Source of the DNA: an uncultured Rubritalea sp. | GTDB lineage: Bacteria > Verrucomicrobiota > Verrucomicrobiia > Verrucomicrobiales > Akkermansiaceae | Length of the DNA stretch: 64,000 nt | Direction: 5' to 3' | NCBI GenBank assembly: GCA_937981665.1 | Contig: CALJOJ010000021.1 | Coordinates: 62,001 to 126,000, forward strand | Part shown: positions 38,092 through 42,602 of the stretch, one piece after another | Numbering within the stretch: position 1 is the first letter of the stretch | Layout of the letters: each line of letters opens with the position of its first letter | The notes under the pieces: generated by a model | The model's input: the letters and a program-made list of their open reading frames with translations, nothing else | Database searches by the model: none | What the model was told of the DNA's origin: nothing | Program-made: the position numbers and the translations under genes

Positions 38092-40851
38092 ATGAAAACC
38101 CTCTCCATCTCCCTAGCTCTCATCACCACACTCTCAGCCGACACGCAAATCAACTCATGGTACACTAAGGACTCTGCCAAGTACGCTCGTATTTATGAGA
38201 CAGAAGCTGATGAGACGGCACTAAATTCCGTCACCACATGGAGTCGTGGCACGGGCATACAAAACCCTGCCACATACTCAGGTGTTCATGAAATATCATC
38301 CAATGACAACTGGGTATACATCCGCACTACAGGACTAGCATCACACCTCATGGGACCATGGTACCTCAATGCAAACAAAACCAATCTCTTTCCAAACTAC
38401 CCATCGAACACCGCTACCATCTACCGCATTCCACGTGCTCCAGCCGAAGCGACAGTAAAAACTGCAACAGGCCTCGGAGCAGTCGGATACTATGTTAACG
38501 GAGTGGCAATGTTTAACTCAATCGATGCCTTTTCCTACTCGACCGCAAACTCTGCTGATGCCTCACCTAACTCATCCTACACTGGTGATGGTATATGGAA
38601 CCGTGATGCCTATGTAAACGAGAACGTCACGTTCGATGCTGCCAATGCTCACCAGGCAGGAAACATCTACCACTACCATGCCAGCTCACCAGGACTACGT
38701 CACCAGCTCGGCGACAGCGTGGACTACGATGTTAGCAGAAATACCTATACCGAAAACCCGGCATCCATCACAGATCACTCACCTATCTTAGGCTGGGCAG
38801 CTGATGGCTATCCAGTCTACGGACCATACGGCTACTCGGTCCCTAACAACTCCTCAAGCACAGTCCGCCGCATGATCACTGGATACGCGGAGCGCACCAT
38901 GACCGTCCGTACTACATTGCCACAATGGGCTGCAGACGTCACCGCTAGATCGACAGCTCTCGATGCAGACGAATACGGCCCAGCAGTAAGCACAGCTTTC
39001 CCTGTAGGTCACTACGCAGAAGACTATGAGTTCGTCGGTACTGGTGACCTAGATCTCTACAACGGCCGTACCTGTGTCACCCCAGAATACCCAGGTGGCA
39101 CCTACGCATACTTCATCACTATTGAGGCAGACGGAACTCCCGTTTACCCATACTCACTCGCTACACAATACTACGGTGTAGCAACGGGATCTACCATGAA
39201 TAGTGTCGCTGGAAACGTTACAGTTCACTTCCAAGGAGGAGCGGAATCTACAGATACCAATGGCCCTATTACTAATGACGATAGTAATGATAACGGCGAC
39301 CTTATCATCACATGGAGCACTATTGAAGGCGGCACATACACAGTGCAGTCATCCACCACACTCGGGGATAATTCTTGGATTGATGAAGCTATAGATATTT
39401 CACCTAGTAGTAACACACTCACGTACACCACTCCTACTGACTTAGATAAAGAATTCTTCAGAATAAACCGCACCTCGATTGAAGAGTTTGATGACAATGG
39501 ATTTGATTATGACGACACCATCATCGATGACACAGATCCTGATCCTCAGAGCAATATCCTTCTTCTCATCATTGATGACTGGGGCATCGATGCCAGCATC
39601 TTTGACAATGACTCTACAGACACCGATATCAGCTTCGCGCCGATGCCTAATCTGCAAGCACTGGTAGACCAAGGGCTAAGATTTACAAATGCCTACTCGA
39701 ACCCTACATGCTCGGTCACAAGAGGAAGCATTATTACTGGTAGATATCCATTCCGCACTGGAATAGGTAATCCGACAACAGACAACACACTCGCAGCTAG
39801 TGAACTCGCACTCCCTGAGGTATTTACTGCTCAAGCATCTCCCTACGCACTAGGTTCCTTTGGAAAATGGCACCTAGGAGGCGGCACAAATGCACCTGCT
39901 ACGAGAGGAGGATGGACAGAATTTAGAGGTATCCTAAGTGGTGGAGTAACTTCATACACTGACTGGAGTAAGACAATCAATGGTGTAACAGCGGCAACTA
40001 ATGTCACTACATACACTACTACAGATCAAGTCAATGACACCGTTTCCTTCATCACATCACAAGGCTCTGCTCCCTGGTTCGCATGGGTTGGCTTTAACGC
40101 ACCTCATTCTCCCTTCCATAATCCAGCAACCGGAGCTGATGGAAATCCACTAGAAAGCTATCCTGAATACCCTGAAACAAATGGTGAAGTCACAGGAGCT
40201 GATAGGAAAGCCGCATACCAAGCTGCACTCGAAGCCCTAGACACAGAGATCGGAAGATTACTTGCATCCGTAGATCTAAGCACCACTAACATCATCATCA
40301 TCGGCGACAACGGCACCCCAGCACAAACAATACAGACTCCATACGACTCCACACACGCTAAAGGATCACTCTTCGAGGGAGGCACCCACGTCCCGCTCAT
40401 CGTCGCAGGACCAAGCGTCACAGCAACAGGAACTACAGATTCGCTAGTCCACTGTACAGACTTGTACACGACCATTCTAGATCTTGCAGGTATTGATTCC
40501 GTGGCAGCAACCTCAGGTCTCACCATAGACTCACAGAGCATCGTTCCTATTCTAAATAACTCAGACACCGCGGACCGCTGCGTTGTTATAGAGCAGTTCG
40601 GTGATAATGTCAGTAATGGTAGAGCCATCATTTCTGACGACTACCCATCCTTCAAACTTATCATAGCAGGCAGCCCAACCGACGACACAGATACTCCACA
40701 GTTCTCTCTCTACAGAATCAGCTCTGATGAGAATGAACAGTCACCACTCGATCTGACAAACCTAACTACCAACCAACAAGCTGCATACGATCACTTGCTA
40801 GCTAAAGACGCAGCAATTGGTGGCGGATATAGCGATCCGGCTTCCAACTAA
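38092..40851 (+). CDS. Secreted YHYH-domain / sulfatase fusion protein
   Basis: The 919-residue protein has a short signal peptide and an N-terminal YHYH domain to about residue 370, with IYHYH at 192-196, GDGIWNRDAY, LGWAADGYPVYGPYGY and TYAYFITIEADG. A short beta domain of the verrucomicrobial 'TYTVQSSTTL' kind follows (about 400-460), then an Asp-rich linker. A sulfatase domain runs from about 487 to the end. It keeps the metal site LLIIDDWG, Cys540 in CSVTRGSIITG, GKWHLGG, NAPHSPFH and IIGDNGTP. The formylglycine motif CxPxR reads CSVTR, Val replacing the usual Pro or Ala. Substrate unknown. It is followed 59 bp later by the MbnP-MbnH fusion. Confidence 0.85.
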   Translation: MKTLSISLALITTLSADTQINSWYTKDSAKYARIYETEADETALNSVTTWSRGTGIQNPATYSGVHEISSNDNWVYIRTTGLASHLMGPWYLNANKTNLFPNYPSNTATIYRIPRAPAEATVKTATGLGAVGYYVNGVAMFNSIDAFSYSTANSADASPNSSYTGDGIWNRDAYVNENVTFDAANAHQAGNIYHYHASSPGLRHQLGDSVDYDVSRNTYTENPASITDHSPILGWAADGYPVYGPYGYSVPNNSSSTVRRMITGYAERTMTVRTTLPQWAADVTARSTALDADEYGPAVSTAFPVGHYAEDYEFVGTGDLDLYNGRTCVTPEYPGGTYAYFITIEADGTPVYPYSLATQYYGVATGSTMNSVAGNVTVHFQGGAESTDTNGPITNDDSNDNGDLIITWSTIEGGTYTVQSSTTLGDNSWIDEAIDISPSSNTLTYTTPTDLDKEFFRINRTSIEEFDDNGFDYDDTIIDDTDPDPQSNILLLIIDDWGIDASIFDNDSTDTDISFAPMPNLQALVDQGLRFTNAYSNPTCSVTRGSIITGRYPFRTGIGNPTTDNTLAASELALPEVFTAQASPYALGSFGKWHLGGGTNAPATRGGWTEFRGILSGGVTSYTDWSKTINGVTAATNVTTYTTTDQVNDTVSFITSQGSAPWFAWVGFNAPHSPFHNPATGADGNPLESYPEYPETNGEVTGADRKAAYQAALEALDTEIGRLLASVDLSTTNIIIIGDNGTPAQTIQTPYDSTHAKGSLFEGGTHVPLIVAGPSVTATGTTDSLVHCTDLYTTILDLAGIDSVAATSGLTIDSQSIVPILNNSDTADRCVVIEQFGDNVSNGRAIISDDYPSFKLIIAGSPTDDTDTPQFSLYRISSDENEQSPLDLTNLTTNQQAAYDHLLAKDAAIGGGYSDPASN

Positions 40852-40866
40852 AAACTGAAGAAAACC

Positions 40867-40890
40867 ACTAGGATCTATAGTCATCCTAGT
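40867..40890 (+). other. Hairpin between the YHYH-sulfatase and MbnP-MbnH genes
   Basis: ACTAGGAT (40867-40874) pairs perfectly with ATCCTAGT (40883-40890) around an 8-nt loop. There is no U-run after it. It may shape expression of the second gene or stabilise the upstream message. Confidence 0.4.
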
Positions 40891-40910: not shown

Positions 40911-42602
40911 ATGATACCTTCACTGCTACTATTATTCACTCTAGCAGCAACGGCATTCTCCGCTGAACTCAGCTTATCGGTAAGCCACCACTACGCAGGC
41001 AAACCCGTCTTCCTAGACTCCTTCAGGTATCAGACAGCCCAGCAAGAAACCTATGCACTCACCCGTATTAGCTATCTCCTCTCAGGATTTCAGTTAGAGA
41101 AAACTGATGGTTCACGCCTCGAACTTCCAGATCAATACGCCTGGATAGATCACCAAGCCAACACCCACTTCCGCCTAAAAAACATCCCTGAAGCAGACTA
41201 CAAGGCTATCCACTTTAACGTTGGATTAGATAAAAATAGTAACCATCTTGACCCTGCCAAGTACCCAGCTGACCACCCGCTCAGCAGCCTCAGAAATCTC
41301 CACTGGAACTGGGCAGAAGGATACATCTTCCTCGCTATCGAAGGTCATCAGCTAGAGGGCAAAAAAGGATTCGTCTACCACCTAGCCAATGACCATAACC
41401 TAACCCCAGTATCAATTAGCCAGTCTATAAAGATCACTAACAACACACATATTGATCTAAACCTTGATATTGAAAATCTCATCAACTCACCAAGCCCCAT
41501 CCATTTTCTAACAGATGGAAACATTAGCCACTCAGCAAAAGACGACCCCATCGCAGCCAAGCTGAAACGTAATCTAACAAATAGCTTCTCTATCACCAAA
41601 ATCTCATCTCTACAACAACCTGTAAAAGAAAAACTCAAAGCGCTCTATATGCCGGAAACCTTCACCCCGTATCCATTTTCTCTCCCCAGCCATATTCCTA
41701 TCCCTGCACTCCCCACAGACAATCCACTCATCAGCGAGCGTGTCACACTCGGAAACGCACTCTTTCACGACAATCGCCTATCCAAGGATAACAGTATCTC
41801 CTGTGCATCCTGCCATCAGCAACAATTCGCATTCACTGACCCAAAGAAACAATCTACTGGGGTAAACCAAGCCACCAGCCTACGGAACTCCATGCCGCTA
41901 CAAAACCTCGCTTGGAAAAAACAATTCTTCTGGGACGGCAGAGTCAGCAAGCTTCGCGATCAAGTCATTTTTCCTATCACCGATAAAGCAGAAATGCATC
42001 AAGACATAGACCTCCTCCCTGAAAAAATAAATTCGCTCTCACCTCTCTTCAAAAAAGCATTTGGTAATCAAGAAATCACCACTGAGAAAATTACCCTCGC
42101 ACTCGAAGCCTACCTCCTCACCCTCACATCACTCGACTCAAAGTTCGACCAATCCATCAAAGGCAACACCACTCTAACAAAACAAGAGCAGCGCGGACTC
42201 AAACTATTTTTTACCGAGAATGACCCACGCAACCGTAAGCGAGGAGCTGATTGCTTCCACTGCCACAGCGGCCCATTCTTCTCAGATGACTCCTTCCACG
42301 ACACTGGTCTCCCTAGTATTACTGACACAGGCTTAGAGCGTACTACAGGCAAAGCAACTGACCGCTTCAAGTTCATTACTCCAAGCCTGCGTAACATCGC
42401 TCTAACAGCCCCGTACATGCACGATGGCAGATTCGACACGCTAGAGAAAGTCATCGACCACTACGACCACGCTCACAAGACAACTCCAAATCTAGACCCA
42501 AACCTCTCCAAACACGGGACCCTAGGACTCCAGCTCAGTCAAGACGACAAAGCAGCCCTCGTTGCATTCTTAAAAACACTGACTGATCCTAAATTTAAGT
42601 AG
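40911..42602 (+). CDS. MbnP-like copper-binding domain fused to MbnH-like di-haem enzyme
   Basis: The 563-residue exported protein (signal peptide to about residue 18) joins two parts normally encoded separately. Residues about 19-230 resemble MbnP: an opening SVSHHYAGKPVFLDSFRYQT, YALTRISYLLSGFQL, and LHWNWAEGYIFLAIEG with Trp132 and Trp134. Residues about 255-563 are an MbnH/MauG-type cytochrome c peroxidase with two haem sites, CASCH (298-302) and CFHCH (448-452), LGNALFHDNRLSKDN, FFWDGR and PYMHDGRFDTLEKVI. In methanotrophs MbnH oxidises a Trp of MbnP to kynurenine to build a copper site. Here enzyme and substrate would be one chain. Confidence 0.85.
   Translation: MIPSLLLLFTLAATAFSAELSLSVSHHYAGKPVFLDSFRYQTAQQETYALTRISYLLSGFQLEKTDGSRLELPDQYAWIDHQANTHFRLKNIPEADYKAIHFNVGLDKNSNHLDPAKYPADHPLSSLRNLHWNWAEGYIFLAIEGHQLEGKKGFVYHLANDHNLTPVSISQSIKITNNTHIDLNLDIENLINSPSPIHFLTDGNISHSAKDDPIAAKLKRNLTNSFSITKISSLQQPVKEKLKALYMPETFTPYPFSLPSHIPIPALPTDNPLISERVTLGNALFHDNRLSKDNSISCASCHQQQFAFTDPKKQSTGVNQATSLRNSMPLQNLAWKKQFFWDGRVSKLRDQVIFPITDKAEMHQDIDLLPEKINSLSPLFKKAFGNQEITTEKITLALEAYLLTLTSLDSKFDQSIKGNTTLTKQEQRGLKLFFTENDPRNRKRGADCFHCHSGPFFSDDSFHDTGLPSITDTGLERTTGKATDRFKFITPSLRNIALTAPYMHDGRFDTLEKVIDHYDHAHKTTPNLDPNLSKHGTLGLQLSQDDKAALVAFLKTLTDPKFK

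Follow-up and report, generated by a model that had tools for sequence, protein, structure and literature searches.

The gene at 40911–42602 of the window (the whole 64,000-nucleotide stretch of DNA analyzed here, from an uncultured Rubritalea sp.) encodes, in a single chain, an MbnP-like domain and an MbnH/MauG-like di-haem domain. The fusion is not peculiar to the Rubritalea genome: it is a family spread across the phylum Verrucomicrobiota. It is probable, in our judgment, that the product is an exported copper protein carrying its own maturase, with a copper site formed by a kynurenine at position 132 and two histidines, H157 and H207.

Architecture and distribution of the fused gene

The start of the gene is placed at the ATG at 40911, because an in-frame stop codon lies at 40887 and no other start codon is found between the two (Table 1). 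Along the 563 uninterrupted codons, Pfam MbnP (PF20243) matches residues 18–193 with an E value of 8.7e-33 (114 bits, above the cut-off of 27), and Pfam CCP_MauG (PF03150) matches residues 276–420 with an E value of 1.3e-49. The preliminary description of this DNA, made by reading the sequence, had recognized one frame with an MbnP-like domain and a two-haem CxxCH domain, and its coordinates and domain limits proved to be correct to within a few residues; residues 19–230, which it had assigned to MbnP, are related to that family through PF20243. The signal peptide that it had proposed is retained here as a signal-peptide-like N-terminus judged by eye, and the single-chain product is predicted to be exported.

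Table 1. Coordinates of the fusion gene, its parts and its adjoining genes. Bare numbers are positions in the window; numbers after a locus name are positions in that locus.
Feature	Location	Strand	Basis or remark
Upstream gene, 919 aa, YHYH (111–346) and sulfatase (487–801)	38092..40851	+	Pfam
MbnP-MbnH-like fusion gene	40911..42602	+	563 aa, single open frame; more than 90 homologous fused loci
Signal-peptide-like N-terminus, residues 1–18	40911..40964	+	MIPSLLLLFTLAATAFSA, judged by eye
MbnP-like domain, residues 19–233	40965..41609	+	PF20243, E 8.7e-33; predicted fold similar to 7l6g
WxW motif, W132-N133-W134	41304..41312	+	Invariant in 94/94 fusions
H157, predicted copper ligand, conserved MbnP His	41379..41381	+	Invariant in fusions and aligned stand-alone MbnP
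H207, predicted copper ligand at MbnP Met position (CMS to THS/SHS)	41529..41531	+	94/94 fusions
Inter-domain linker, residues 234–265	41610..41705	+	Conservation poor; pLDDT low at 235–241
MbnH/MauG-like di-haem domain, residues 266–563	41706..42599	+	PF03150, TIGR04039 and 6e1c matches
Haem-binding motif 1, C298-x-x-C301-H302	41802..41816	+	94/94 fusions
W341, Q351, E361, MauG-type inter-haem Trp and distal Gln/Glu	41931..41993	+	94/94 fusions
Haem-binding motif 2, C448-x-x-C451-H452	42252..42266	+	94/94 fusions
Y518, MauG/MbnH-type axial Tyr	42462..42464	+	Tyr in 94/94 fusions
Giant galactose oxidase proteins	L038:10055-18898, L039:2-8665, L040:10089-18275, L042:3-8207, L045:9617-17461, L047:9861-17078		Adjoin fusion gene
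CusA/CzcA heavy-metal RND pump gene	L060:4810-7932, L100:4582-7893		ATGA overlap with fusion start

Homologous fusions were found by several routes. A whole-protein search of 289 Verrucomicrobiota genomes revealed at least 13 further full-length fusions. A contig scan with an alignment of the MbnP half found 293 relatives, the same scan with a single protein as query having returned none; the best 80 of the 293 were kept for inspection, and all of these 80 are fused except where the contig stops short of one or both haem motifs. Some loci were obtained twice via different collections (L032/L068, L035/L106, and L036/L116). The named records with the fusion are all from Verrucomicrobiota. Furthermore, PF20243 is found in 22 of 388 Verrucomicrobiota genomes, always in a long fused frame apart from visibly broken genes, and the 388 yielded no MbnP that was both intact and unfused. 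In the broken fusion G108 (loci with breaks, L173 and L048), a frameshift splits the frame near the second haem motif, and in G121 a stop codon and about 2.5 kb lie between the MbnP piece and the haem piece. In plasmid records no fusion was found, no place covering 80% of the query, and the plasmid MbnP/MbnH pairs inspected are separate genes. Three of the plasmid matches (H1, H2, and H22) are stand-alone MbnH proteins annotated as “methanobactin export MATE transporter MbnM”, which seems to be a wrong name; the label was disregarded because the products align with the di-haem query.

A frame of this kind might be produced by an assembly error or a frameshift joining two genes, as the preliminary description itself had considered. 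However, the same single frame occurs in more than 90 loci and in many independent genomes, the MbnP halves of the other fusions sharing 27–63% identity with that of Rubritalea, and the spacing from the WxW motif to the first haem motif is nearly constant at about 170 residues. An artefact is thus ruled out with hardly any residual doubt, and the covalent union of substrate and maturase families stands.

In a tree of the di-haem domain, 38 sampled fusions make up one group with 99% SH-aLRT support, and the stand-alone MbnH proteins and the one MauG included fall outside it. The unfused L018 is nested inside the group and is best read as a case in which the MbnP half was lost later. On this tree, the simplest reading would be that the fusion arose once, in Verrucomicrobiota or close to it.

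The predicted copper site and the di-haem domain

Residue invariance was scored on 94 aligned complete fusions. On the MbnP side, W132, W134, E144, H157, H207, and D212 are identical in all of them, while H131 and H122 are kept in 90 and 86, respectively; the invariant residues include both tryptophans that the preliminary description had singled out. Both halves fall short of the curated NCBIfam cut-offs. In the case of TIGR04052 (MbnP_like_WxW), the Rubritalea fusion scores 36 bits and the other fusions 31–39 bits, below the cut-off of 140 that the stand-alone MbnP of Pseudoalteromonas passes with 152.6 bits. The best-scoring NCBIfam model for the haem half, TIGR04039 (MbnH family), gives 235 bits for Rubritalea and 216–247 bits across the fusions against a cut-off of 363, and the MauG model TIGR03791 gives 204 bits against 444. 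Because both halves lie below these cut-offs, function is transferred at the superfamily level only.

Since a PDB sequence search with the single MbnP half found no match, and a profile of the MbnP half reached 7l6g only at an E value of 0.49, fold comparison was used for this half. A model built from 95 sequences (pLDDT 94.9, pTM 0.91) has significant PDB fold matches only to 7l6g, the structure of MbnP, in six chains, with E values down to 1e-10 and TM scores up to 0.66 on query length. In the alignment, W132, W134, and H157 are common to the fusions, 7l6g, and the MbnP proteins of Methylocystis, Paracoccus, Ideonella, Pseudoalteromonas, and Trichormus. The fusions lack the four-Cys motif of classical MbnP, and in 94 out of 94 the Met of the CMS sequence in four-Cys MbnP is changed to His (H207, in THS or SHS). 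The Deinococcus MbnP, also devoid of the four cysteines, has a His near the position of H207 as well.

In work on MbnP from 2021, the first Trp of the WxW motif is said to be converted to kynurenine, which reportedly holds copper together with one His, one Met, and solvent. To judge from conservation, the Met in question would be that of the CMS sequence, and W132, the first Trp of WxW, is presumably the counterpart of the converted residue. W132 is then most likely the kynurenine precursor in the fusions, with H157 and H207 most likely serving as copper ligands. Given that the four-Cys motif is absent and the conserved Met is always His, the predicted Cu(I) site consists of Kyn132, H157, and H207, a two-His-plus-Kyn set like that of MopE*/CorA. 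This refines the preliminary description, which had proposed tryptophan oxidation and copper binding within the chain: the likely target is narrowed to W132, and the likely ligands are H157 and H207, the latter replacing the conserved Met of MbnP. The Cu(I) site of CorA comprises Kyn62, H64, and H114, with the kynurenine as a second-sphere ligand at 2.9 A (PMC3912023).

The haem half has MbnH (6e1c) as its best PDB match by sequence (2e-42), and 6e1c is also the top Foldseek match of this half in the full-length model. Invariant in 94/94 fusions are C298/C301/H302, W335, W341, Q351, E361, C448/C451/H452, H517, and Y518. W341, Q351, and E361, which we take to be the equivalents of Trp93, Gln103, and Glu113 of MauG, show the same 10/10 spacing. 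Y518 aligns with Tyr in 6e1c and with Met in 1iqc, a bacterial cytochrome c peroxidase, so that the Met which these enzymes use as axial residue of the high-potential haem is replaced by Tyr in every fusion. Because of the MauG spacing and the Tyr at 518, the haem half is, as judged from these residues, of the MauG/MbnH type and not of the peroxidase type. Cytochrome c assembly genes are present in the Rubritalea genome.

Gene neighbourhood of the fusions

The genes flanking the fusion in the window encode a urea carboxylase, an allophanate hydrolase, a YHYH-sulfatase, and a UvrD-type helicase; a methylamine dehydrogenase context is missing from this locus. No MbnB-family gene was found in the assembled genome, in agreement with the methanobactin genes noted as absent in the preliminary description. 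The YHYH-sulfatase gene ends 59 bp before the fusion, and the two may be co-transcribed, although an 8-bp inverted repeat, ACTAGGAT...ATCCTAGT (window 40867-40890, found by eye), intervenes between the stop codon of the former and the start of the latter. The active-site motif of the sulfatase domain reads C-S-V-T-R in place of the usual CxPxR.

Among 77 loci with enough flank, 49 have a YHYH gene no more than 1 kb from the fusion; it often includes a sulfatase domain, and the two frames often overlap or almost touch each other. In the 289-genome set, YHYH is present in all of the 16 genomes with MbnP and in 14 of the 273 without it (Fisher p about 2e-18, with genomes treated as independent and kinship ignored). 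YHYH is predicted to bind metal via three His and an Asp (PMC7824862), and the association with the fusion suggests that the YHYH protein is a copper or other metal enzyme. The same co-occurrence would fit a reading in which the haem half acts on some other protein, for instance its YHYH partner, with the MbnP half as a targeting or docking domain. We regard this as very unlikely, since the WxW motif and both candidate ligands, which mere docking would not need, are kept without exception, and many loci have no YHYH neighbour.

Another type of neighbour is found in six loci, where the next gene after the fusion, at a gap of 0–3 bp or with an ATGA overlap, encodes a protein of 2400–2950 aa with a galactose oxidase at its N-terminal end (2.7e-96 to 9g8h in L038). 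L038, L039, and L042 have all of the motifs in which the copper and cofactor residues lie (DMFC, GRWY, YHS, and THxxN), and the other three match them partly, by pattern. In these giant proteins the galactose oxidase is followed by lectin/PA14/Ig domains and then by a second di-haem (CCP_MauG/RoxA-like) region. Most fusion loci are without a galactose oxidase neighbour, and a search lacking a positive control found no galactose oxidase domain in the Rubritalea genome.

Galactose oxidases make H2O2, and the fusion could be a peroxidase or electron-transfer unit (the haem half) with a copper redox partner (the MbnP half), the pair removing H2O2, for example that from the adjoining galactose oxidase, or feeding electrons, and Trp oxidation being incidental or absent. 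The direct adjacency in six loci and the giant protein's own di-haem region fit such a role, but the axial Tyr instead of the peroxidase Met and the strictly kept WxW in all 94 fusions, together with the loci that have no galactose oxidase, make it unlikely.

Other genes around the fusions and their relatives also concern copper or heavy metals. In two loci, a CusA/CzcA pump gene overlaps the fusion start (Table 1), and stand-alone relatives adjoin CopC/CopD in Deinococcus and PCu(A)C/SCO in Paracoccus. The Deinococcus plasmids L166 and L167 carry separate genes for a MauG-like protein and an MbnP without the four-Cys motif, and a copper-resistance gene lies near them (in L167, CopC and CopD). 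The neighbourhood thus links the fusion to copper and secreted enzymes. Genes for a histidine kinase and/or a response regulator are located near the fusions in L043 (10280-12433), L044, L046, and L049, perhaps for copper-responsive regulation. DUF7133/HEAT proteins are also encoded near the fusion (L033:10450-14652, L041:12006-15179, and L085:4580-7753); two of them have a cytochrome c domain at the C-terminal end, and the third has a cupredoxin-like domain there.

Proposed maturation and comparison with known systems

In the scheme that we favour, the protein would be exported and two c-type haems would be attached to its C-terminal half. By analogy with MauG/MbnH, H2O2 would convert the di-haem centre into a high-valent state shared by the two haems via W341, and this centre would oxidize W132 in the MbnP half to kynurenine. 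Kyn132, H157, and H207 would then constitute the Cu(I) site. More tentatively, the copper-loaded fusion may handle or supply copper for neighbouring extracytoplasmic enzymes, the clients being galactose oxidase in some loci and probably YHYH(-sulfatase) in others, including the window.

The oxidation of W132 might take place between chains, the haem half of one acting on the MbnP half of another, e.g., in a dimer; the fusion would then serve co-export and 1:1 stoichiometry and not intramolecular chemistry. MbnH and MbnP act as separate proteins and are encoded elsewhere by separate genes, and the linker, with zero invariant columns in the fusion alignment (A1), is poorly conserved. In a full-length model from 18 sequences (pLDDT 78.7, pTM 0.73), the linker and the WxW segment fall below pLDDT 50, and the domain arrangement is uncertain. 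Nothing direct speaks against maturation in trans, although the fusion would spare the chains an intermolecular encounter, and we take it as a serious possibility, if not the one on which we would bet. The specific picture in which W132 is matured in cis and copper is loaded onto the secreted enzymes of the operon, possibly with H2O2 from the very copper radical oxidase that is served, is, taken as a whole, rather doubtful.

To our knowledge, kynurenine copper sites are limited to a handful of proteins, and the di-haem enzyme that matures each of them is, on present knowledge, a separate protein. A naturally fused version would offer a 1:1 system for a high-valent di-haem centre turning a protein Trp into kynurenine, and would extend kynurenine-copper chemistry to a large phylum of mostly non-methanotrophs. 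The evidence here connects this chemistry with copper radical oxidases and the YHYH family, and the conserved Met-to-His change makes it possible to test sharply how the set of copper ligands is tuned.

Several known systems resemble the fusion in part. In Streptomyces, maturation of GlxA requires both DtpA, a haem peroxidase that is secreted, and the copper chaperone Sco (PMC4736821). As would be the case with the fusion, the enzyme served is a galactose-oxidase-like copper radical enzyme, and a secreted haem peroxidase acts on its behalf together with a copper carrier, whereas DtpA is of the DyP type, Sco is unrelated, and the parts are not fused; the analogy covers the galactose oxidase loci only. 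MauG shares the inter-haem Trp, the distal Gln/Glu at the same spacing, and the axial Tyr, but its substrate is a separate protein, methylamine dehydrogenase, in which tryptophan tryptophylquinone is formed, and in the tree the haem halves of the fusions lie on a branch apart from the single MauG included.

In CorA/CorB of Methylomicrobium album and MopE/SACCP of Methylococcus capsulatus, the Cu(I) set of kynurenine and two His is the one predicted for the fusion, and a di-haem protein of the peroxidase family is likewise the partner; unlike the fusion, the two are encoded by separate genes. Among the significant PDB fold matches of the MbnP-half model there is no CorA or MopE entry, and the MbnP sequence is not markedly similar to CorA/MopE (PMC3621798).

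The closest relative is the MbnP/MbnH pair of Methylosinus trichosporium (7l6g and 6e1c; TIGR04052 and TIGR04039), whose two genes have been described as separate but adjacent (PMC3621798). The same two families occur in the same order, with the WxW motif, the conserved MbnP His, and the MauG-type haem-pocket residues. In contrast to this pair, the MbnH-like part is not beside a separate MbnP gene but fused to it in one chain, the four-Cys motif is missing, the Met is changed to His, both halves are below the NCBIfam cut-offs, and the locus has YHYH or galactose oxidase neighbours and no methanobactin genes. The open literature searched makes no mention of an MbnP-MbnH fusion, while the 2019 MbnH and 2021 MbnP papers may mention one. 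What is known is the two-gene MbnP/MbnH pair, and what appears to be new is the fused form, its phylum-wide occurrence, the altered ligand set predicted for it, and its operon context.
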